From Polyangia bacterium (GTDB lineage Bacteria; Myxococcota_A; Polyangia; Polyangiales; Sandaracinaceae): a stretch of 55,864 bases of DNA. The notes below the pieces were generated by a model. The model saw only the letters and a list, made by a program, of their open reading frames with translations. It was not told the DNA's origin and ran no database searches. The position numbers were made by a program, and so were the translations under genes. Location: assembly GCA_030426845.1 (NCBI GenBank), contig JAUHXR010000016.1, positions 1 through 55,864 of the forward strand. The letters run 5' to 3'. Numbering within the stretch: position 1 is the stretch's first letter; every line of letters begins with the position of its first letter. Shown here piece after piece: positions 1 through 55,864 of this stretch.

Positions 1-363
1 GGGCGGCGCCTTCGGCGGCGCGCTCGGGCGGGGCAGCGGCGGCGGAGCCGACGAGGTCGCGGGCCCTGCGGCCAACGGCGTCGAAGGTCGAACGCTCGAG
101 GACCGCGCGGTGGGAGGCGTGGCAGCCCGCGGCGGAGCCGGCGGCGGGATCGACGCGGGCTGCGCGGGCCGGGGCGGGGGCGGCGCGGCGGGCGGTGGGG
201 GCGCGGCCGGCCGCTCCACGAGGGGCGAGTGGACCTCGTCCTCCAGCTCGCCCAGCAGCCGATCGAGAGTGTTGTCGCGCCGCGGCGGCTTCGCCTCGCG
301 AAGCTCGCTGACGTCGACGTCCATCGTCTCGGTCGCAGGATCGGCGTCGCGGTGGTCGACCAT
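1..363 (-). CDS. Partial Pro/Ala-rich protein, unknown function (3' end outside window)
   Basis: An open frame of 121 codons runs from an ATG at 363 to the left edge without a stop. The first ~55 residues are charged (MVDHRDADP..., LDRLLGELEDEV). The rest is dominated by Pro and Ala runs, typical of the flexible linkers in myxobacterial regulatory or envelope proteins. No domain is recognisable in the visible part. The shine-dalgarno signal is weak, and an in-frame ATG at 323 is an alternative start. It lies downstream of the sigma-32-like gene on the same strand, 126 bases after its stop. The opposite frames at 110-649 and 229-1422 are shadows. Function cannot be named. Confidence 0.5.
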   Translation of the reverse strand, partial: MVDHRDADPATETMDVDVSELREAKPPRRDNTLDRLLGELEDEVHSPLVERPAAPPPPAAPPPPRPAQPASIPPPAPPRAATPPTARSSSVRPSTPLAAGPATSSAPPPLPRPSAPPKAPP

Positions 364-44045: not shown

Positions 44046-44924
44046 TCAGCGGCCGCAGGCGAGGAGCGCGGCGACGTCGTCCTCACCGAGCGCGAGGTCG
44101 CGGGCCGCGAGGTCCTCGCGCATGTGCTCGCTCGACGTGGTGCCGGTCAGGGGCAGCATCCCGAGCGCGGCCGCGAAGCGGAAGACGAGCTGCGGCACGG
44201 TGGCGCCACGCGCGGCCGCGAGCGCCTCGACCGCCGGCGCCTCGAGCTCGCGGCGGTTCGCGGTGAGGAGCGAGAAGCCCTGGTACACGACGCCGTGCCG
44301 GTCCGCGACCTTGCGCACCCGCGCGTCCCAGCCGCGCGACGCGTAGCAGCGGTTCTGGACGAACGCCGGTCGGATCCGCGCGAGGCCTGCGAGCTCGTCG
44401 AGCTGATCCGCCCCAACGTTGCTCACCCCGAGCGCACGCGTCACGCCCTCGTCGACCAGGCGCTCCATCGCCTGCCACGCGGCCCAGTCGGCGTCGGTCA
44501 GGCCGACCGCCTGCGCGGGGCCGTGGAGGACGAGCGAGTCGAGCCGCTCGAGGCCGAGGTGGGCGAGGGAGCGGCGCGCGCTCTGTGCCACCTGCTCGCC
44601 GATCGGCGCGCGGGGATCGTAGGGGAGCCGGTGGTCCTGCCCGCGCGCGAACGTGAACTTGGTCTGCACGAACAGCGCGTCGCGGCTCACCCGCCCGCCG
44701 TCGAGCGCGGCCCGCAGCGCCTCGCCGACGCCGGCCTCGTGGTAGTGCTTGCGCTGGTTCGCGGTGTCGATCGCGCGGAAGCCCGCGTCGAGGGCGCGGC
44801 TCACGCAGTCCGCGGTCGCGTCCTCCTTCCAGGCGGTGCCGTACATCAGCCACGGCACCCGGACCGCCGCCCCGTCGGGCCCCGCCGCGCGCCCGGCCTC
44901 GAGCTCGGCGGGGGCGGCGCTCAC
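44046..44924 (-). CDS. Aldo/keto reductase
   Basis: 292-residue NADPH-type oxidoreductase of the AKR superfamily, reducing an aldehyde or ketone of unknown identity. The catalytic tetrad is visible: Asp in FRAIDTANQ with a nearby Tyr in KHYHEAGVG, Lys in LFVQTKFTF, and His in SLVLHGP. The Tyr sits a few residues later than in the usual DTAxxYG layout, so the alignment should be checked. The C-terminal phosphate-binding region includes LTGTTSSEHMREDL. The GTG at 44924 overlaps the glmM stop (GTGA), making it the last gene of the glmM transcript. Confidence 0.85.
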   Translation of the reverse strand: MSAAPAELEAGRAAGPDGAAVRVPWLMYGTAWKEDATADCVSRALDAGFRAIDTANQRKHYHEAGVGEALRAALDGGRVSRDALFVQTKFTFARGQDHRLPYDPRAPIGEQVAQSARRSLAHLGLERLDSLVLHGPAQAVGLTDADWAAWQAMERLVDEGVTRALGVSNVGADQLDELAGLARIRPAFVQNRCYASRGWDARVRKVADRHGVVYQGFSLLTANRRELEAPAVEALAAARGATVPQLVFRFAAALGMLPLTGTTSSEHMREDLAARDLALGEDDVAALLACGR

Positions 44925-46279
44925 GCCAGCTCCCGGCGCGCGGTCTCCAGGATGTCGTTGGCGTAGGCCTCGATCTTCTTGTCGTCGTCGCCCTCGACCA
45001 TCACGCGGAGCTTGGGCTCGGTGCCCGACCAGCGGATGACGACCCGGCCCTTGGCGCCGAGCTTCTTCTCGACCTGACCGACCGCCTTCATCGTGGCCGG
45101 CATCTGCTTGAGGGGGCGCCGCTGGGTCAGGTTCGCGTTCACGAGGATCTGCGGGACGCGCTGCATGGCCGCGCTCGCGAGCTCGCTGAGCGGGCGCTCC
45201 TCGCGCAGGACCAGCGCGAGGAGCTGGAGCGCGGCGACGAGGCCGTCGCCGGTCGACGCGTGGTCGAGGAAGACCATGTGCCCCGACTGCTCGCCGCCGA
45301 AGTTGAAGCCCCGCTTGCGCATCGCCTCGACGACGTAGCGGTCCCCGACCGCGGTCCGCACGAGCTTGCCGCCCGCGGCCGTGATCGCGCGCTCGAGCCC
45401 GAGGTTGCTCATGATGGTCGTGACGAGCGTCTTCTTGCGGAGCGTCTTCTCGCGCAGCATCCGCGTCGCGCAGAGCGCCATGACCACGTCGCCGTCGACC
45501 TTCTGGCCGCGCTCGTCGATCACGATGACCCGGTCCGCGTCGCCGTCGAGGGTGATCCCGAGGTGGGCCTTGCGCTTGAGCACCTCGCGCGCGCAGGCCT
45601 CCGGGTGCACCGCGCCGCAGCTCTTGTTGATGTTGTAGCCGTTGGGCCGCACCCCGATGGGGAAGACCTCGGCGCCGAGCTCGAAGAACACGAGGGGCGC
45701 GACCTTGTAGGCGGCGCCGTGGGCCGCGTCGACCACGATGCGGAGCCCGTCGAGGGTCAGCTCGTCGGGGAACGACTGCTTGACGAACTCGGTGTAGCGG
45801 CCGGGCGCGTCCTCGAGCCGCACCGCGCGCCCGAGGTTGCGGCCGGTGGGGCGGGACGAGTCGAGCGCGTCGCCGGCGATGAGCGCCTCGAGCTCCTCCT
45901 CGGCCTCGTCGGGCAGCTTGAACCCGTCCGCCCCGAACAGCTTGATGCCGTTGTCGTGGAAGGGGTTGTGCGAGGCGCTGATCACGACGCCCGCGTCCGC
46001 CCGCATGCTCGTCGTCAGGTGCGCGATCGCCGGCGTCGGGAGCGGGCCGGTGAGGCTCACGTAGCCGCCCTGGCAGATCACGCCCGCGCTCATCGCCGGC
46101 TCGAACAGGTAGCCGCTTCGGCGGGTGTCCTTGCCGATGACGATGCGCGGCGCGTGCTTCACGCGCTTGCGGATCTGGTAGGTGATCGCGGCGCCGATAC
46201 GGAACGCGATCTCGGGGGTCATGTGGCCGGCGTTCGCGAGCCCGCGGATGCCGTCCGTGCCGAAGAGCTTCCTGGCCAT
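44921..46279 (-). CDS. glmM: Phosphoglucosamine mutase
   Basis: Interconverts glucosamine-6-P and glucosamine-1-P for UDP-GlcNAc, peptidoglycan and lipid A synthesis. The 452-residue protein starts MARKLFGTDGIRG. It has the phosphoserine loop VISASHNPFHDNG (Ser at about 101), the metal-binding DGDADR (about 244-249), the sugar motif GGEQSGH and the phosphate-binding RWSGTEPKLRV near the C-terminus. ATG 46279 is preferred to 46315, which would add 12 non-family residues. It lies 64 bases after tamB. In Firmicutes GlmM interacts with CdaA, and cdaA-ybbR lie about 5 kb away on the other strand. Confidence 0.96.
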   Translation of the reverse strand: MARKLFGTDGIRGLANAGHMTPEIAFRIGAAITYQIRKRVKHAPRIVIGKDTRRSGYLFEPAMSAGVICQGGYVSLTGPLPTPAIAHLTTSMRADAGVVISASHNPFHDNGIKLFGADGFKLPDEAEEELEALIAGDALDSSRPTGRNLGRAVRLEDAPGRYTEFVKQSFPDELTLDGLRIVVDAAHGAAYKVAPLVFFELGAEVFPIGVRPNGYNINKSCGAVHPEACAREVLKRKAHLGITLDGDADRVIVIDERGQKVDGDVVMALCATRMLREKTLRKKTLVTTIMSNLGLERAITAAGGKLVRTAVGDRYVVEAMRKRGFNFGGEQSGHMVFLDHASTGDGLVAALQLLALVLREERPLSELASAAMQRVPQILVNANLTQRRPLKQMPATMKAVGQVEKKLGAKGRVVIRWSGTEPKLRVMVEGDDDKKIEAYANDILETARRELA

Positions 46280-46343
46280 CGCGCCAGGGCTACCCGGGCC
46301 AGCCCCCGCGATCAAGCGCCGCGTGCGCTGGGGCCCCCGCGGC

Positions 46344-49300
46344 TCACGGCTCCCAGAGGAGCTCGAGCCCGCCGTTGTCGATCGGGACCCAGGTGCCCCG
46401 CATCAGGAAGTCGCTCGGGAAGGTCGCCTCGACCGAGATGCCGCCCCCGACGCCGCCGCCGCCCGAGCTCGTCCCGGCCGCGTTGGTGCCCTCGGTCGCC
46501 GCGGTCACGAAGCCCTCGAGGTAGAGCCCCGTCACGATGCCGTCGAGGAAGTCGGGGATGAGCTCGTCCACGTCGAAGCCGGCCCGGATGCGGGTGCCGC
46601 CGATGCCCTGGCTCTCGATCGCGAGGACCGGGAGCACGTCGCCGAACTCCTGCCGCAGCGTCAGGGTGAGCAGGCCGGCGGCGAGGTTCGACACGAAGCT
46701 CGACGCCTGCGCGGCCGCGTCCTGGACGTCGCTGGCGCCGCGGCTCCGCCCACCCGCGACCAGGAGGCCGATGATCTCCGCCTGGTTCGCGGACTCCGTC
46801 GAGGTGAAGGCGACGTGCGGATCCTCGAGCGACCCGGTGACCTCGACCGTCACCGTCGCGCCGCTCCGCCCGGGGATCTCGTAGACCGCGACGACCCGCA
46901 CCTGCGGGTTCAGCTCGGTGCCGCCGTCGAAGGTGATGCCGCCCGTGCGGAGCTCGAAGCGCTTGCCGAAGATCTCGAAGGTGCCGCGGTGGATGGTGGC
47001 GCGCCCCTCGACGGTGAGGTCGGGATCCGCGTAGGTGGCCGTGATGTCGGCGGTGAGCTGGGCCGCGAAGTCGGTGCGGCGGACCCAGAACGGGTCGCCC
47101 GCGTCGACCCGGAACTCGAGCGGGTAGGAGTCGCGCTGGGGGCCCACGAGGATGCGCTGGGAGCCCACGACCAGCACCTGCGGGTGCAGCTCGAGGGCCT
47201 GCAGGGTGGCCGCGGTCTGCTCGGGGAGGCGGACGTCGAAGTTGTGGATCTCGAGCGACGAGAGCGTCTCGTCGTCGCGGATCTGGCCCTCGAGGAGCGC
47301 GTTGCCGGTGAGCCAGGCGAGGACCATCCCCTCGCGCCGCACCGGGAACGCGCTCGCCGCGAGGGTGAGCCCGACCGAGCGCGGGTAGACGCCCTCGAAC
47401 CCGACGTTGCCGCTGATCAGCACGGTGCCGCCCGAGTCGGTCGCGGTGAGCGGGTCGTCGTGCGGCAGGAGCGCCTCGTCGCCGTAGAGCTCCACCCGCC
47501 CGTGAATGTTCTGAAGGTGCTGGCCGAGGCCCTCGATCTGGATGGACCCGTCGCGCATGTCGACCGCGCCGTTGAGCTGGATCGTCTCCCAGGGGCCGGT
47601 GAGCTCGACCTGCCCGTCGACCACCACGTCGCCGGCCACGATCCCGGGGATGAACGCGAGCACCGGCTCGGCGCGCACGTCGGAGAAGTCGTTCCAGCTC
47701 CGGATCGGGCGCGTGTCGTCGTAGGCGGGGAGCGCCTCGCCCGCCGTCCAGCGCACGGGGACGCGGAGCCGCGAGAGCATCTCGCCCGGCGCGGCCCCGC
47801 GCACCATCCGGCACTGCTCGGGCGGGGTGCCCTCCGCGCCCGCCATGCCGAGGATCGCGCAGGCGGTCAGCGCGTCGCCCTCCTCGGCGGAGCCGGCGCG
47901 CACGTGCACCTGGAACGCCTCGCTCAGCGTCGGGTCGCCCCGCGAGCCCGCGGTCTCCCACAGCCGCAGCTCCGGCATGTCGACCACCGCGCCGAGGCGG
48001 GGCCGGTCCGTGAACAGGCCCGTCAGGTTGGCCGTCCCGTAGATCGGGCCGCGCCCGTAGCCGCACGCGTAGGGCAGCTCGGCGAGGTCCAGCCCGTCGA
48101 AGGTCGCTCGCACCTCCGTGTCCGGGACCTGCGTCACCTCGCCGCGCTCGACCCACTGCGCGACCGGGAGGGTCGCGCCGATCTCGGCCAGGAGGACCGG
48201 CGAGGACCCCGAGCCGAAGCCGCGGATCGTCCCCTCCGCGCGGTCGCCGTCGAGGGAGGCTCGCACCACGGCGTAGGGCCGGAGCGACGACGAGCACGCG
48301 TCGTCGCCCGAGAGCTCGACCACGCGCAGCACCGCCGCGACGTCCGCGTGCGGCCCGCTCGCGTCGCCCTCGGCCGTGAGCGACGCGCTCGCGAGGATGC
48401 CCGGCGGCATCCGCTCGTCGAGCGGCGCGGGGTAGGAGTCGAGCCGGCGCGACGCGAGGCGGACCGACGCGGACCAGCCGCCGCGGTGCACCTGCTGCCA
48501 GAACGCGGCGCGGGTGTCCGGCAGATCCTCGAGGTCGAGGGGGAGCTCGGCCTCGCCGCTCACGAGCTCGCCGACCGCGTCCGCGACCCAGAGGTGTCGA
48601 ACCTGCACGCGACCTTGCCCGTACCGTACCCGGAGCTTGGCGCGGATCGGATCCCAGCCCGCGAGCCCGATCTCGTCGAGCACCACCACCGACTCCTGGA
48701 TCTCGGGGCGCAGGCCCGTGCCCCCGAGTCGGATGTCGGTGGTGATCCGCCCCGCGACGGGCAGCGCCGTCCCCGCGAGCACGCCGATCGCGCCGAGGTC
48801 GAGGTTGTCGGTGCGCACGTCGAGCTGCGAGAGGTCCGCGTCCTCGGCGATGCGTGACGGGTCGGCGAGCGCCTCGCGCGTGAGCCCGATCGGCCCGCGC
48901 GCGAAGAGGCGCCCGCGCGCGCCGAGGTCGAGCGCGACGTCCGTGTCCAGCGATTCGCCCTCGAGCCCGAGATCGACGCGGCCGGAGATCCCGTCGAGGC
49001 CCCGGTAGGCGCCGTCCCGGATCTGGAGCGCGACCCGCCCCTGGGGGCGCCGGTCGAGGTCGCCGTCGAGCCGCACCGTGCCATCCACGCGGCCGCCGAT
49101 CCCCGCGAGCGCCTCTGGCGCGAGGTGGTCGAGCCCGTCCAGGGTCACCCCTTCGAGCTCGACGGAGACGTCGTCGTCGCCGTGGAATCGGTAGGTCCCG
49201 CGCGCGGTGATCGCCTCGCCCGGACGCACGAGGCGGATCGGGTCGAGCTCCACCGAGTGCCCCATCCGCAGCGTCATGTCGACCTCGCCGCGCCACGCCT

Positions 49301-51026
49301 CGCCCGCGCCCAGATCGACCATCACGTCGGTGGAGCGCAGCGACAGCGTGTCCTCGGTGAGGCGAGCCCGCCCGGTGAGCGAGGCGCGCGTCCCGCTCTG
49401 CGCGTCGCTCGTGGCGACGGCGACCTCGTAGCCGCCGGGCCCGCCGTGCAGGCCCACGTCGGCCGTCCCGAGCCTCAGGCCGCCCACCTCGAGCCCCGTC
49501 GCGTCGCCGTCGACCGAGACGGTGGGCGCGGGCATCTCGCCGCCGACCCGGCCGCTCACCCGGAGGGTCGACGCGCGCACCGAGCCGTAGCGCAGGCCGC
49601 GCAGCGCGACCGTGCCCGAGCCGCGGAAGTTGGTCAGCTCCTCGTCGGCCTGGATGCGGAGGTTCCGCGTGACGAGCGAGCCGCGCGCGCCGGGCGCGAA
49701 CCGGCGCACGTTGGGGTCGCGCGCGATGTCGGGCACGCTCGCGCTCACCGTGAGGTCGAGGCTGCCGTCGTAGCCGATCGTGCCCGTCGCCGAGGCCTCG
49801 CCGTCTGCGACCGTGGTGTCGAGGTCGGTGATCGTCAGCTCATCGTCGCCGATCAGGCCGTCCACCGAGAAGCCGGGGATCGCGATCTGCTGGTAGCGCA
49901 GCGCGGCCACGTCCGCGTGGAGGCGCCGGACCGGCTCGCCCGTGACGGGATCCTCGTCGAGGGCGAGCGTGGCGTGCGCGCCGATCCGCATGCGCGGCGC
50001 GACCGGCACGAGCTGATCGAGCCGGTGGTCGCCGTGGGTCCACGCCTCGAGGGTGATCGGGCCTTCGCTCGGGAAGTGGCCGCGCCCGATCAGCCGGCCG
50101 CCCTCGCTCGTCACGTCGGCGTCGAGCCGGAGGTCGTCGGTCGGCCCGTGCATTCGGCCCGCGCCGCGGAACGTCCCCGTGAGGTTGTCCAGGCCGGGCG
50201 CGATCTCCATCTCCGCGAGGGTCGCCATCCGCATCGGGTCGACGCTCGCGCGGAGATCCATCCGGAGCGGCGCCTCCTCGTCGTCGCCCTCCTGCCAGAG
50301 CCGGATGCGCGCGCGCACGCGGCTGTCGCCCCGGTGGGCGCGCGCGAACGCGTCGAGGCCGTCGGTCATGTCGGTGTTGAAGTGCCCGACGATGCGGTCG
50401 ATCGACGTCCGGCCGGGGTAGGGCCCGGTCATCTCCGCGTTGCCGTCGAAGACGCGGAAGTTGACGTCGCTCCGCGCCTCCACCCGCGCCGCCAGGCGGA
50501 CGCCCTCGAGGCGCAGGCCCTCGTAGCTCGGCACGTCGCCGCGCACCGTGACGTCGTCGATGACGATGTCGTTGACGACGATGAGCGGCGGCGGCGCGCC
50601 CCCCGGCTCGCCCGGGGTGACGGGCAGGAACGCCTCGACGAGCGAGACCGTCTCGTCCTCCTCGCCCGCGACGTAGAGGACCACCTCGCCGCCGCGCGCC
50701 CGGGCGCGGTCGACGAAGATCGTGCCGTCCCACAGCGCGCCCCAGTTGGGCCAGGCCGCGAGCCGATTCACCCGGATGACCTCGCGCCCCTGCGGGTCGC
50801 GGATGATCACCCGCTCGGCCACGATCTTCTCGTAGGTGACGTTGTGCAGCTCGCCGATCTCGAGCGAGCCCTGGATCTCTCGGTTGAGCAGCGCGGTCAC
50901 GGTGTCCACCACCACCAGCGACGCGAGGTCGAGCTGGAGGTGGTACGCCAGGCTCAGGACGAGCGAGACCAGTCCCACGAGCGTCCACGCGAGCGCGGCC
51001 CCCAGGCGTTTGAGGCGCTCCTTCAG
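46344..51026 (-). CDS. tamB: Translocation and assembly module subunit TamB (AsmA-like)
   Basis: Giant inner-membrane-anchored periplasmic beta-helix/beta-taco protein linking the inner and outer membranes and working with TamA. About 1560 residues, longer than E. coli TamB (1259). One N-terminal helix is followed by tandem beta-rich repeats throughout and a C-terminal DUF490 domain (GRATIHRGTFEIFGKRFELR, YEIPGRSGATVTVEV, IIGLLVAG) ending at the C-terminus. The standard start is GTG at 50978 (MGLVSLVLSL). A CTG at 51026 overlapping the tamA stop (CTGA), with GGGGAG upstream, would add the basic flank LKERLKRLGAALAW expected before the helix, and is my preferred start. Confidence 0.88.
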   Translation of the reverse strand: MKERLKRLGAALAWTLVGLVSLVLSLAYHLQLDLASLVVVDTVTALLNREIQGSLEIGELHNVTYEKIVAERVIIRDPQGREVIRVNRLAAWPNWGALWDGTIFVDRARARGGEVVLYVAGEEDETVSLVEAFLPVTPGEPGGAPPPLIVVNDIVIDDVTVRGDVPSYEGLRLEGVRLAARVEARSDVNFRVFDGNAEMTGPYPGRTSIDRIVGHFNTDMTDGLDAFARAHRGDSRVRARIRLWQEGDDEEAPLRMDLRASVDPMRMATLAEMEIAPGLDNLTGTFRGAGRMHGPTDDLRLDADVTSEGGRLIGRGHFPSEGPITLEAWTHGDHRLDQLVPVAPRMRIGAHATLALDEDPVTGEPVRRLHADVAALRYQQIAIPGFSVDGLIGDDELTITDLDTTVADGEASATGTIGYDGSLDLTVSASVPDIARDPNVRRFAPGARGSLVTRNLRIQADEELTNFRGSGTVALRGLRYGSVRASTLRVSGRVGGEMPAPTVSVDGDATGLEVGGLRLGTADVGLHGGPGGYEVAVATSDAQSGTRASLTGRARLTEDTLSLRSTDVMVDLGAGEAWRGEVDMTLRMGHSVELDPIRLVRPGEAITARGTYRFHGDDDVSVELEGVTLDGLDHLAPEALAGIGGRVDGTVRLDGDLDRRPQGRVALQIRDGAYRGLDGISGRVDLGLEGESLDTDVALDLGARGRLFARGPIGLTREALADPSRIAEDADLSQLDVRTDNLDLGAIGVLAGTALPVAGRITTDIRLGGTGLRPEIQESVVVLDEIGLAGWDPIRAKLRVRYGQGRVQVRHLWVADAVGELVSGEAELPLDLEDLPDTRAAFWQQVHRGGWSASVRLASRRLDSYPAPLDERMPPGILASASLTAEGDASGPHADVAAVLRVVELSGDDACSSSLRPYAVVRASLDGDRAEGTIRGFGSGSSPVLLAEIGATLPVAQWVERGEVTQVPDTEVRATFDGLDLAELPYACGYGRGPIYGTANLTGLFTDRPRLGAVVDMPELRLWETAGSRGDPTLSEAFQVHVRAGSAEEGDALTACAILGMAGAEGTPPEQCRMVRGAAPGEMLSRLRVPVRWTAGEALPAYDDTRPIRSWNDFSDVRAEPVLAFIPGIVAGDVVVDGQVELTGPWETIQLNGAVDMRDGSIQIEGLGQHLQNIHGRVELYGDEALLPHDDPLTATDSGGTVLISGNVGFEGVYPRSVGLTLAASAFPVRREGMVLAWLTGNALLEGQIRDDETLSSLEIHNFDVRLPEQTAATLQALELHPQVLVVGSQRILVGPQRDSYPLEFRVDAGDPFWVRRTDFAAQLTADITATYADPDLTVEGRATIHRGTFEIFGKRFELRTGGITFDGGTELNPQVRVVAVYEIPGRSGATVTVEVTGSLEDPHVAFTSTESANQAEIIGLLVAGGRSRGASDVQDAAAQASSFVSNLAAGLLTLTLRQEFGDVLPVLAIESQGIGGTRIRAGFDVDELIPDFLDGIVTGLYLEGFVTAATEGTNAAGTSSGGGGVGGGISVEATFPSDFLMRGTWVPIDNGGLELLWEP

Positions 51027-54000
51027 AACGACTCCCCGATCGTCAGGTGGAAGGCGCCGGGGATCGCGAAGTCGCCGATCTGGAAGAACTGGCTGCGCGG
51101 CCGGCAGGGGCCGCTGCCGCCCGCGTCGAACGAGGTGCAGTCGCGCGGGAGCTGGCTGTTCCCGCCCACCACGAGGGTCTCGTCCGGTCGCACGGCCACA
51201 TCAAAACGTAGCGGGCCGATGATGGTCTGGTAACGGATGCCCAGCCCGACCGCGAGCTGGAGGTGGTCGAACCGCCACCCCACGCCGCTCTCGCCGAGGA
51301 GCTGTCGGTCGTTGTCGCCCACGTCCGCAAAGGCCACGACGCCGAGCGAGGTGCTCACCGGGACGCGGACCTCGAGGGACGCGAGCCAGAGGCGCTGCCC
51401 GCCGGAGACCCGAACCGGTCGCGCGCGCACGCCGCTCCCGTTGCGGGCCTCCGAGTCGCTGAGCGGCTCGGTCACGTAGACCTGGGTCGCGTCCCCGAGG
51501 AGGCCGGGGAGGTAGCCGCGGTTGCTCGACGCGCCGCCGCCGGTGAGGTGGAGCGCGGGTGGGCCGAGCCGGTCGAGCTGGTAGACGCTCCCCGGCAGGA
51601 GCGTCTCCTCGTCGTAGCCGAGCACCTCCATCATCCCGATCTGGAAGCGGCCCGCGAGGACGACGCCGGCGAAGAGCGGCACGTAGCCGCGCGCCTCCGC
51701 GGTGAGGCGCACCATCGTCCAGGTGCTCAGCGGCTGGAAACCCTGCTGGCCCGTGATGGCGAAGTAGGCCCCGAGGGTCGGCGAGCGCGGGTCGTCGCGC
51801 AGATCGATGCGGATCGTCTCCTCGATCCACGACGCGTAGGTCTCGGGCAGTCGATCCTCCGGGAGCACCGGCTGCCGGTCGGTCGGGAGGAAGTAGTTCA
51901 CGTGGGCGAAGAGCCCGAGGTAGAGGCGGTTCTCGAAGAACTGCGCCTCCGGGCCGATCGAGGCGTCGAGCTCGAGGCGGAAGAAGTTGGTGAACGGCAT
52001 CGGGCCGAGGTCGGCGCGGGTCTGGCCGAGCAGGGTCAGCCACCGCGCGCCGAGGAAGTTCGGCCACCGCATGCTGCCGTTCGCGAGCACACCGAAGGGC
52101 AGGGGCTCCGCCGGGTCGAAGCTCAAGAACGGCATGTTGAAGATGAACCGCGGCCGCACCTCGAAGCGCGCGCGGATCATGCTGTCGGCGAAGTTGCGGT
52201 CCTCCACCGAGAAGGAGAGGTGCAAGTCCCACTGCGCCGCGTTCTGCTGCGACGAGACGGCGCTGACCGTCCCGAAGGTCACCGCCTGGCCGGCCTGGAA
52301 GCCGCCGCCGATCCCGATGCGGTAGCGCCGGCCGGGCGTGACCTCGATCAGGATGTCCGCCGCCTCGGCCCCGTCCCGGACGCGGCGCGGCGGGTCGGCG
52401 CAGTAGCGGGGGCCCTCGGTGCGCTGGTCGTGGCCGAGCTGGGCGGAGGTCCGATCCGAGACGTCGGCCACCGAGTCCTGATCGACCGGGCCGTCCTCCT
52501 CGTCGCCCTCGTCCTCCCCCTCCTGGTCGCCCTCCGGGTGCACGTCGACCGCCCCGAGCACGCCGAGCCGGTAGAGCGCGCGCTGCGCCTCCTCGAGCGC
52601 GGCGAGGCTGAAGGTCTGGCCCGCCTCGAGGCCCGAGACGACGATGAGCGGCTCGGGCGGCAGCTCGCCGAAGCCGACCACGCAGACCCGGCCGATGACG
52701 TTGGGCGGCCCGGCGTCGACGCTGAAGATCACGAAGGCCTCGCGGCGCCCCACGTTGATCTTCACGTCGCCGTCGACCCGCGCGTGGGCGTAGCCGGCGT
52801 CTGCGAGCGCGCGCACCATCCGGCGCTTCGTGTCCTCGTAGAGCGCCTCGTCGAAGGGGTCGTCGCGGCTGAAGTTCAGCTGCTCGCGCAGCAGCTCGCG
52901 CATCCCGTCCGGGAGGTCGTCGACCCCGCGGAGGCTCATGCGCGCGATGCGCACCGGCTCGCCCTCGTCGACCTGGAACGTGACGTGGACCTCGCAGTTC
53001 CCGTCGCCGTCGCCGCATCCCTGGCCGCGCCGGTCGACGGTGGACGCGGTCGGCGGCTGGAGCTCCGAGGCGGTGACCCGCGCGTCGTAGTAGCCCCGCG
53101 CCCGGTACCAGCGCTCGATCCGCTCGAGGTCGCGCTCGAACACGTTCTCGTCGAAGAGCGGCCACTCGGTGAACGGCCAGCTGAACGGCTGGACGAGCAG
53201 GTGGTCTCCGTCGAACGGGGCCTCTCCGCACGAGGGCTCGCCGCGCACGCCGATGTCGATCCCGAACCGCGGGCGCTGCCGCGTCCCGAGGCACGCCGCG
53301 AGCGACTGCTCGTCGAGCTGGTCGACGCCCTCGAAGTGAACGCCGGCCACGCCGTAGCGGCCGTCGGGGACCTCCTGGGGCGTGCTGCTCAGGCCGAACG
53401 ACAGCCCCGCGCCCCAGACGCCGAGCGGCTCGAAGGCGAAGCCGAGCGGCGGGTCGAGGTTCACGAGGAAGCTCGCCTCGGCGAACAGCTCGATCGAGCT
53501 GTCGTCGAGTCGGAGCGTGCCGCGGAGGAACGCCTCGAGGCTGCTCTGCGTGGTGTTCGCGTCGAGGGTCGGCGTGATGACGGAGCGGAAGCGCAGCCCG
53601 CCCATGAAGTTGTCGTCGCGCAGCGCGGCCGCGGCGCGGAGCTGGATCGTCGCGTCGACGTCGCCGCCGGTCGAGAGCGCGACCGCCTGAGCCACGTTGT
53701 CCGGCGCGGTGCTCGCCTCGCCCGTGTACACGGAGAACATGGCGGCGCCCTCCGCGCCGAGCTCCAGGTAGAAGAAGTCGAGAGGCATGAGCTGGAGCTG
53801 CAGCAGGCCCACCGCGGAGACCCGGTCGGCGGCCCAGAGCCACAGCTCGGAGCCGCCCCGCACCGCGGCCCCATAGAACGAGGCGAGGCGAGCGTCCGAC
53901 GAGGTCAACCCGGCGGGGATCGTCGCGCCGGCCCCGAACCGGAACCGCCAGCGCTGCTCGCCCGCGACGCCCATCACGCTCAGCAGGGTGTTGGCGGCGG

Positions 54001-54310
54001 CGCCGTGGTTGCCGATCGCGCCGAGCGCGTCCCGCTGCTGATCGAAGTCGGTCCAGGCCCAGCCCGCGACGAGGCCGATCTCGAGGACCTGCTCGAGGAC
54101 GAGCCCGGCCCGGAGGAGCCCCGAGAGGTGGCCGACCTGATCCTCGCCCTCGGCGGCCGCGGCCCACATCGTGAGCTCGCCAGCGGCGCCGCTCCGGGGT
54201 ACGAGCTCGAAGCCGCGCGCGGACGGAGTGTCCCAGCGCGGCTGCGCCGCCGCCGGCGAGGCCCACGCTGCCCCGGCGGCGAGGACCCCCAGCAGCGCCC
54301 ACCGCCTCAC
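51023..54310 (-). CDS. tamA: BamA/TamA-family outer-membrane protein with extra N-terminal barrel-like domain
   Basis: 1095 residues, about twice E. coli TamA. Signal peptide (1-23). Residues about 40-310 are alternating short amphipathic strands with Gly/aromatic ends (for example LLRAGLVLEQVLEIGLVAGW) and resemble a complete outer-membrane barrel, not POTRA. POTRA-like domains follow (about 321-665: GVHFEGVDQLDEQSL, VHVTFQVDEGEPVRI, FVIFSVDAGPP). An acidic insert sits at about 592-620 in the last. The C-terminal Bac_surface_Ag barrel is about 665-1095. GTG at 54310. Ends by overlapping tamB (CTGA). A plain OMP85 assignment is safe; the double-barrel reading is inference. Confidence 0.85.
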   Translation of the reverse strand: MRRWALLGVLAAGAAWASPAAAQPRWDTPSARGFELVPRSGAAGELTMWAAAAEGEDQVGHLSGLLRAGLVLEQVLEIGLVAGWAWTDFDQQRDALGAIGNHGAAANTLLSVMGVAGEQRWRFRFGAGATIPAGLTSSDARLASFYGAAVRGGSELWLWAADRVSAVGLLQLQLMPLDFFYLELGAEGAAMFSVYTGEASTAPDNVAQAVALSTGGDVDATIQLRAAAALRDDNFMGGLRFRSVITPTLDANTTQSSLEAFLRGTLRLDDSSIELFAEASFLVNLDPPLGFAFEPLGVWGAGLSFGLSSTPQEVPDGRYGVAGVHFEGVDQLDEQSLAACLGTRQRPRFGIDIGVRGEPSCGEAPFDGDHLLVQPFSWPFTEWPLFDENVFERDLERIERWYRARGYYDARVTASELQPPTASTVDRRGQGCGDGDGNCEVHVTFQVDEGEPVRIARMSLRGVDDLPDGMRELLREQLNFSRDDPFDEALYEDTKRRMVRALADAGYAHARVDGDVKINVGRREAFVIFSVDAGPPNVIGRVCVVGFGELPPEPLIVVSGLEAGQTFSLAALEEAQRALYRLGVLGAVDVHPEGDQEGEDEGDEEDGPVDQDSVADVSDRTSAQLGHDQRTEGPRYCADPPRRVRDGAEAADILIEVTPGRRYRIGIGGGFQAGQAVTFGTVSAVSSQQNAAQWDLHLSFSVEDRNFADSMIRARFEVRPRFIFNMPFLSFDPAEPLPFGVLANGSMRWPNFLGARWLTLLGQTRADLGPMPFTNFFRLELDASIGPEAQFFENRLYLGLFAHVNYFLPTDRQPVLPEDRLPETYASWIEETIRIDLRDDPRSPTLGAYFAITGQQGFQPLSTWTMVRLTAEARGYVPLFAGVVLAGRFQIGMMEVLGYDEETLLPGSVYQLDRLGPPALHLTGGGASSNRGYLPGLLGDATQVYVTEPLSDSEARNGSGVRARPVRVSGGQRLWLASLEVRVPVSTSLGVVAFADVGDNDRQLLGESGVGWRFDHLQLAVGLGIRYQTIIGPLRFDVAVRPDETLVVGGNSQLPRDCTSFDAGGSGPCRPRSQFFQIGDFAIPGAFHLTIGESF

Positions 54311-54317
54311 GTTGGGC

Positions 54318-54770
54318 TCACCCTCGCTGGGGCGCGCGTACGGTGAGCACGGGGCAGGGTGCGTGGCGCACGACCCGCTCGGCCACGCTGCCGATCAGCA
54401 GGTGCGCGAGGCCGGTCCGGCCGTGGGTCGACAGGACGATGAGGTCCGACTGCTCCTTCGTCGCGTAGTGGCAGATGCCCTCGGCCGGGTTGGGGCTCAC
54501 GATGAGGGCGGTCTTGGTCTGCTCGACGCCGGCGAAGTGCTCGCTGAGCACGTCGGTGAGCGCCTCGTGGATCTTCTCCTCGAGGTCGCCCTCGGGGCTC
54601 ACCTTGGCGGAGTCGCCGGCCACGATCGGCGCGAGGGGCGAGGGGTCGATCACGTGGCACACGGTGACCTTCGCGCTCACCTCGCGGGCCAGCTCGGCCG
54701 CCTTGGTGAGGCCGGCGGACGCCGCCTCGGAGAAGTCCGTCGCCACGAGGATGCTCTGGGTGTTCGCCAT
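54318..54770 (-). CDS. Universal stress protein (UspA family)
   Basis: 150 residues, Rossmann-like fold. The N-terminus ILVATDFSEAA is typical. The ATP-binding signature G-x2-G-x8/9-G-S is present near the C-terminus: STHGRTGLAHLLIGSVAERVVRHAPCPVLTVR as separate stretches HGRTG and IGSVAERV. It lies seven bases upstream of tamA on the same strand and seems to head the uspA-tamA-tamB-glmM-reductase run, which is an unusual neighbour for an outer-membrane assembly gene. Confidence 0.92.
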   Translation of the reverse strand: MANTQSILVATDFSEAASAGLTKAAELAREVSAKVTVCHVIDPSPLAPIVAGDSAKVSPEGDLEEKIHEALTDVLSEHFAGVEQTKTALIVSPNPAEGICHYATKEQSDLIVLSTHGRTGLAHLLIGSVAERVVRHAPCPVLTVRAPQRG

Positions 54771-55584: not shown

Positions 55585-55864
55585 CTACGGCTCGAGCGGG
55601 GTTGCGCTCGGGTCCTCGAGGGCGAGCGCGCCGCGGGGAGCGTCGTCGAGCCGGAGGTGACCGTTGGCGTCGGTCCGCGTCACCCACGCCGTCCCGTCCG
55701 CGAGGCGCAGGGCCACCGTCCGCTGGCGCAGGAGCGCTGCGCCGTCGGGCGAGTAGGCGAAGACGTCCGCTCGCGCGCCGAGCTCGGGCAGGCCGGGTCG
55801 GGCGCAGACGTCGGCCACCGCCGGCATCAGCGGCTCCTCGGCGCAGGCCGCGAGCGCCTCGCCC
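55585..55864 (-). CDS. Partial protein of unknown function (N-terminus outside window)
   Basis: An open frame on the minus strand runs from the right edge to a stop at 55585 with at least 92 residues. The visible part contains three cysteines (LAACAEE, DVCARP) and a beta-rich end (VALRLADGTAWVTRTDANGHLRLDD) that resembles the Gly/Asp turns of carboxypeptidase-regulatory or transthyretin-like domains, though this is only an impression. An ATG at 55827 is internal, because the frame continues upstream with coding-like codons. Confidence 0.5.
   Translation of the reverse strand, partial: GEALAACAEEPLMPAVADVCARPGLPELGARADVFAYSPDGAALLRQRTVALRLADGTAWVTRTDANGHLRLDDAPRGALALEDPSATPLEP

Follow-up and report, generated by a model that had tools for sequence, protein, structure and literature searches.

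A tamA gene on the 55,864-nucleotide stretch of DNA analysed here, hereafter the window (contig JAUHXR010000016.1 of Polyangia bacterium assembly GCA_030426845.1), probably encodes a form of TamA, the outer-membrane component of the TamA-TamB system, in which a complete outer-membrane barrel of 12 strands stands in place of the N-terminal lipid anchor that is normal in the lineage, with that barrel serving as the anchor of the POTRA1 end; this function is inferred. On balance we also favour a wider reading, in which the barrel is an interchangeable membrane anchor and the lipid of Polyangiales TamA has been replaced three times, at the same site and by unrelated barrels, yielding two-barrel Omp85 proteins. 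The features on which these readings rest are collected in Table 1.

Table 1. Features of the tamAB locus in the window, predicted strands of the N-terminal domain, and fused TamA types in Polyangiales.
Feature	Position in window	Strand	Residues or genomes	Remarks and basis
tamA with predicted N-terminal barrel	51023..54310	-	1095 aa	GTG start; stop codon 51023-51025
tamB	46344..50978	-	1544 aa	44 bases downstream of tamA; Pfam TamB PF04357, E 2e-30
Export signal	54245..54310	-	1-22	Signal peptidase I type, without lipobox Cys; sequence, contrast with lipoprotein starts
N-terminal 12-stranded barrel domain (predicted)	53384..54241	-	24-309	AF2, fold matches, alternation, family
Tether	53351..53383	-	310-320 (TPQEVPDGRYG)	Spans about 11 residues between the last strand and conserved G320
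POTRA region	52331..53353	-	~320-660, boundaries approximate	Pfam PF07244, three stretches; secondary structure
Omp85 barrel	51026..52330	-	~661-1095	Pfam PF01103 at 831-1040
Modelled strands 1-6			39-51, 59-72, 76-88, 102-116, 121-132, 165-174	AF2
Modelled strands 7-12			180-193, 218-231, 235-247, 252-267, 273-284, 298-309	AF2
Type A fusion (window barrel)			G000, G003, G005, G008	Three genera; G000 is the genome of the window
Type B fusion (OmpA barrel)			G001, G006, G009	Sandaracinus-like genus
Type C fusion			G403	Another family of the order

The tamA open reading frame is of coding type along its full length (G+C of 0.73/0.49/0.97 at the three codon positions). In its product, Pfam identifies POTRA (PF07244) in three stretches, all downstream of residue ~320 (E 8.7e-20), and Omp85 (PF01103) at the C-terminus (E 1.3e-20, 74.7 bits against a cut-off of 24). 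We counted three POTRAs, with insertions in POTRA1 and POTRA3, that in POTRA3 being rich in Asp/Glu; the Omp85 barrel contains a loop-6-type RGY motif (SSNRGYLPG) and ends in Phe. The protein reaches 51.8 bits against the NCBIfam TamA model (cut-off 625, E 5e-14) and scores higher against the BamA model, at 102.9 bits, which is also below the cut-off (297); the match to the TamL profile is weak (21.9 bits against a cut-off of 400). The TamA cut-off is a naming rule for close relatives and corresponds to no structural feature. By these scores the window protein is distant from the TamA and BamA proteins modelled in NCBIfam and, as judged from sequence, the gene is the TamA of a tamAB cluster; we use the name TamA rather than BamA because tamB adjoins.

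Beyond tamB lies a gene (44921-46315) whose product resembles GlmM at its N-terminus by inspection, and directly upstream of tamA is a universal stress protein gene (54318-54770, minus strand; Usp, E 8e-36), with a similar gene at the same position in G005. A repeat-rich secreted protein, HEAT-like by eye and ending in ...EDPSATPLEP (55585-55863, minus strand), is encoded upstream of tamA in the window and in several relatives, among them L213 (8681-11257) and L049 (16138-18684), both on the minus strand; it may be a conserved member of the TAM neighbourhood. Long open frames lie antisense to tamA (51263-54346, plus strand, 1027 codons) and tamB (46182-48857, plus strand, 891 codons); such frames are expected at this high G+C content and are no evidence of genes.

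Pfam gave no match to residues 1-312 of the tamA product, and NCBIfam none that was significant. The preliminary description of the locus, made from the sequence alone, had taken the roughly 290 residues ahead of the first POTRA for a full outer-membrane barrel, and the structural evidence bears this out. When residues 24-318 were modelled alone, AF2 produced 12 antiparallel strands of membrane length at moderate confidence (pLDDT 64, pTM 0.67), from a shallow alignment of 5 sequences; the 5-row profile yielded only 4 related loci. Among solved structures, the best matches to the model were all outer-membrane barrels and the top ones are 12-stranded, with fold similarity to FapF (Z 18.9), a COG4313 channel (Z 18.6) and KdgM (Z 17.4 at rmsd 2.1); autotransporter translocators also matched, at Z of about 15-16. 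The likeness to FapF and COG4313 is one of fold, whereas identity is 6-9% and no sequence relation was shown. The inside/outside alternation of hydrophobicity over the 12 strands is 2.50, compared with 1.23 +/- 0.26 in within-strand shuffles, which is about five standard deviations higher (0 of 5000 shuffles as high). As the number of strands is even, both ends of the barrel would be periplasmic, as the POTRAs require.

The moderate confidence of this model, and the five sequences behind it, leave some room for residues 24-309 being a soluble periplasmic beta domain. We find this hardly credible, however: no soluble fold was modelled, no match to a periplasmic domain was found, and 12 membrane-length strands, their alternation, the matches to outer-membrane barrels (Z 17-19 for the three named above) and the existence of stand-alone relatives that end in Phe all count against it. 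A second, N-terminal outer-membrane barrel is the best reading of these residues, within the limits of the model.

The same N-terminal fusion recurs in three further genomes of the family, which is probably Sandaracinaceae (order Polyangiales, phylum Myxococcota). Fused TamA from G003 and G005 is 54-56% identical to the window protein over the full length, and that of G008 is truncated at a contig end; the 12-stranded domain itself is kept at ~40% identity across three genera with its frame intact. Because the fusion is found in three other genomes, the domain is no assembly accident. A mis-called start or a chimeric contig was considered and rejected, the frame, composition and fusion being the same in four genomes.

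The domain belongs to a family that has no Pfam model and consists mostly of stand-alone secreted proteins of about 300-400 aa. A single-sequence search located the family in 15 of 377 genomes, and a profile search in 68 of the 183 genomes of the order Polyangiales, where nearly all matches were stand-alone ORFs. The motifs RG....WLW and NLD.P.GF.F....WG, among others, are kept. A C-terminal Phe is the usual beta-signal in outer-membrane proteins, and it is present in 24 of the 28 stand-alone ORFs with a visible C-terminus; the four exceptions end in ...LLP, ...TVL (twice) and ...GLP. In one genus, stand-alone homologues (L057, 7975-8874; L062, 9476-10396; L065, 8341-9291) adjoin a conserved gene pair coding for a protein of ~430 aa that starts VDRRDF and one of ~740 aa that ends LLSDYRYLYE, which by eye look similar to DUF1552- and DUF1592-type proteins.

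Because AF2 on the full chain (5 rows) reached a pLDDT of only 34 and was not used for topology, the presence of two barrels in one chain has been composed from domain evidence, namely AF2 for the N-terminal barrel and Pfam for the C-terminal one. On domain evidence alone, then, the earlier proposal of two barrels joined by POTRAs in a single polypeptide is supported. We infer, without location data, that both barrels span the outer membrane and that the POTRAs lie in the periplasm between them.

We scored 128 distinct TamA 5' ends, from all loci in the order Polyangiales, judging the lipobox by pattern and not by SignalP. A lipobox-like Cys precedes the Y-G position of POTRA1 by 8-11 residues in 121 of these; the spacing is 9 residues in 92 of the 121, and the residue at -1 to the Cys is G, A or S in 120. 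The other seven, the window protein included, have no Cys at the lipidation site, and they are exactly the fused genes, all with a barrel-like domain in front; these seven 5' ends represent eight genomes, two of which are near-identical. The export signal of the window protein contains no cysteine, and cleavage is expected near the point where ...SPAAA meets QP. Non-fused TamA starts with a hydrophobic signal followed by the Cys, a short segment (typically IP...RYGV) and POTRA1, an arrangement shared by the sister genus (G002, G007) and the other Polyangiales families examined. From this pattern, and in the absence of lipidation data, non-fused Polyangiales TamA is predicted to be a TamL-like lipoprotein. 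Of 20 TamA-like genes sampled from the phylum beyond this order, 18 have the Cys and two have neither lipid nor barrel. The lipid form, as recognised by this start, is common in the phylum, and the anchor is neither universal nor universally needed, since these two genes and E. coli TamA are without one.

TamA genes with other long open frames (900-2359 codons) were checked for further fusions. Only that of G403 was real; in the others, which were rejected, a GC-rich open frame merely precedes the start of a lipoprotein. One tamA copy is split across two frames in a draft genome (L012, G016 C264, 1519-3656), which has a second tamA copy in L139.

The segment IP...R[YH]GV is retained in fusion types B and C, and type A reads E[VI][PE].GRYGV. 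Since the segment ahead of POTRA1 is retained in the fused types, we place the join at the site of the lipid-bearing Cys. This junction bears on the possibility that the fused product is a precursor, cut after export into a separate barrel and a TamA without lipid. An exposed linker is possible, but this short junction looks like the segment retained in the lipoprotein relatives, and cutting would leave TamA without an anchor; we regard such processing as very improbable.

The three types of fusion carry different domains. That of type B, about 180 residues long, is homologous to the barrel of Polyangiales OmpA proteins, in which the barrel is followed by TSP3 repeats and an OmpA domain (PF00691); a common origin of types A and B was rejected (hhalign probability 0.7%). 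The type C protein has 954 aa, with tamB downstream, and its domain is homologous to a third widespread family of stand-alone secreted proteins (~300-400 residues, in 127 of 183 genomes); G403 itself has a paralogue at 47%. Comparison of type C with the type A and type B profiles gave no match. Types B and C are putative barrels, an assignment based on homology and sequence pattern with no structure model.

In a tree of the TamA part (POTRA and barrel), type A forms one clade (support 100/100) and type B another (97/96), beside the lipoprotein genus g3. In a wider tree of the POTRA region, type C falls within its own family, among relatives of lipoprotein type, and at least three changes of start type are required. 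The fused types are thus nested in lipoprotein lineages. Type B is not cleanly one group in this wider tree, where G009 is found with g3 at 89/73; reversion of g3 from barrel to lipid therefore cannot be ruled out. Even so, since the domains are not seen to be related, no fewer than three separate gains are required. From the domain comparisons and these trees, it appears that the lipid was exchanged for a barrel on three separate occasions in Polyangiales, each time for a different, unrelated one.

These events could in principle be neutral, an upstream barrel gene having lost its stop and the lipoprotein start having been lost, so that the fused barrel contributes nothing to the work of TamA. 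This is a generic path for gene fusion, and the fusions are limited to few genera. Three events at one exact position, however, always with the lipid lost and a barrel-like domain gained, do not look random, and the window's domain is conserved, with its frame intact, across three genera. We consider neutral fusion quite improbable.

If the barrel is an anchor, it would pin POTRA1 to the periplasmic side of the outer membrane, with about 10 residues between this POTRA and the bilayer, which is the place where the lipid of the relatives would hold it. The pinned POTRA arm would keep the docked end of TamB near the outer membrane, and this proximity could serve the delivery of lipids or barrel proteins. 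For TamL-type proteins, it has been proposed that a lipid at the first POTRA fixes the POTRAs at a membrane, and that they are constrained if the lipid sits in the outer membrane (PMC4104836). In E. coli, TamB docks on POTRA1-3, removing POTRA1-2 does damage, and the groove in which TamB carries lipid stops about 23 angstroms short of the membrane (PMC12800296).

The main rival to anchoring is partnership, with the N-terminal barrel taking part in the work of TamA as a channel, by handling lipids or by shaping the lateral gate from beside it, and with the fusion holding the two at a 1:1 ratio; the barrel would then be more than an anchor. A precedent exists in the BAM complex of Bacteroidota, where BamG, a separate FadL-like barrel, binds the back of BamA (PMC12611786); there, as inferred for the window protein, an Omp85 barrel stands beside a second, different barrel, but BamA and BamG are separate polypeptides and BamG has 14 strands. 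The resemblance of the N-terminal fold to the channels FapF, COG4313 and KdgM, and its conservation at ~40% identity across three genera, are also in keeping with partnership, and as a lipid would anchor the protein at less cost than 290 residues, the barrel may have a further role. One specific transport role is nevertheless hard to fit to three unrelated domains, one of OmpA type, in the same place, and the lipid of the relatives cannot act as a channel. Partnership therefore remains, to our mind, unlikely, and anchoring is preferred over a specific transport role because all three barrels, as well as the lipid, can hold the N-terminal end in the outer membrane.

Proteobacterial TamA, the Omp85 insertase of the tamAB operon, shares with the window protein three POTRAs, the Omp85 barrel and a tamB directly downstream; the window protein differs in its additional 12-stranded barrel ahead of POTRA1. 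TamL, the lipoprotein TamA of Bacteroidota (PMC12045153, PMC4494059), has its membrane anchor ahead of POTRA1, where the non-fused Polyangiales relatives have their lipobox-like Cys, whereas the window protein is without a lipobox and has a barrel in the lipid's place. TamL was originally described from Bacteroidetes and Chlorobi, and non-fused Polyangiales TamA is similar to it in its lipobox-like start.

The preliminary description had also held the topology to be unknown in the OMP85 superfamily, which stands only in part. No second barrel is described among the ten Omp85 subfamilies of a 2014 survey (PMC4104836), but two-barrel chains exist elsewhere. According to PMC11494523 and PMC8592465, GfcD/YjbH proteins are predicted to combine two barrels in one chain, the N-terminal one 12-stranded and FapF-like, with a periplasmic domain between them, much like the architecture inferred for the window protein; as portrayed there, however, their C-terminal barrel is predicted to be 13-stranded and is not of Omp85 type, the middle domain is not POTRA, and they are tied to exopolysaccharide export and not to TAM. 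The same papers cite Solan 2021, in which the two-barrel class was defined, and an Omp85 case in that work is not excluded. We found no earlier description of a repeated swap of lipid for barrel.

The fused proteins add an Omp85 architecture outside the ten subfamilies of the main survey (PMC4104836). As the closing strand of the first barrel is internal, they raise the question of how BAM folds a two-barrel chain. They also constitute a natural experiment on why TamL and nearly all sampled Polyangiales TamA bear a lipid ahead of POTRA1: unrelated barrels have repeatedly taken its place at one site, which suggests that selection acts on keeping the POTRA1 end at the outer membrane.
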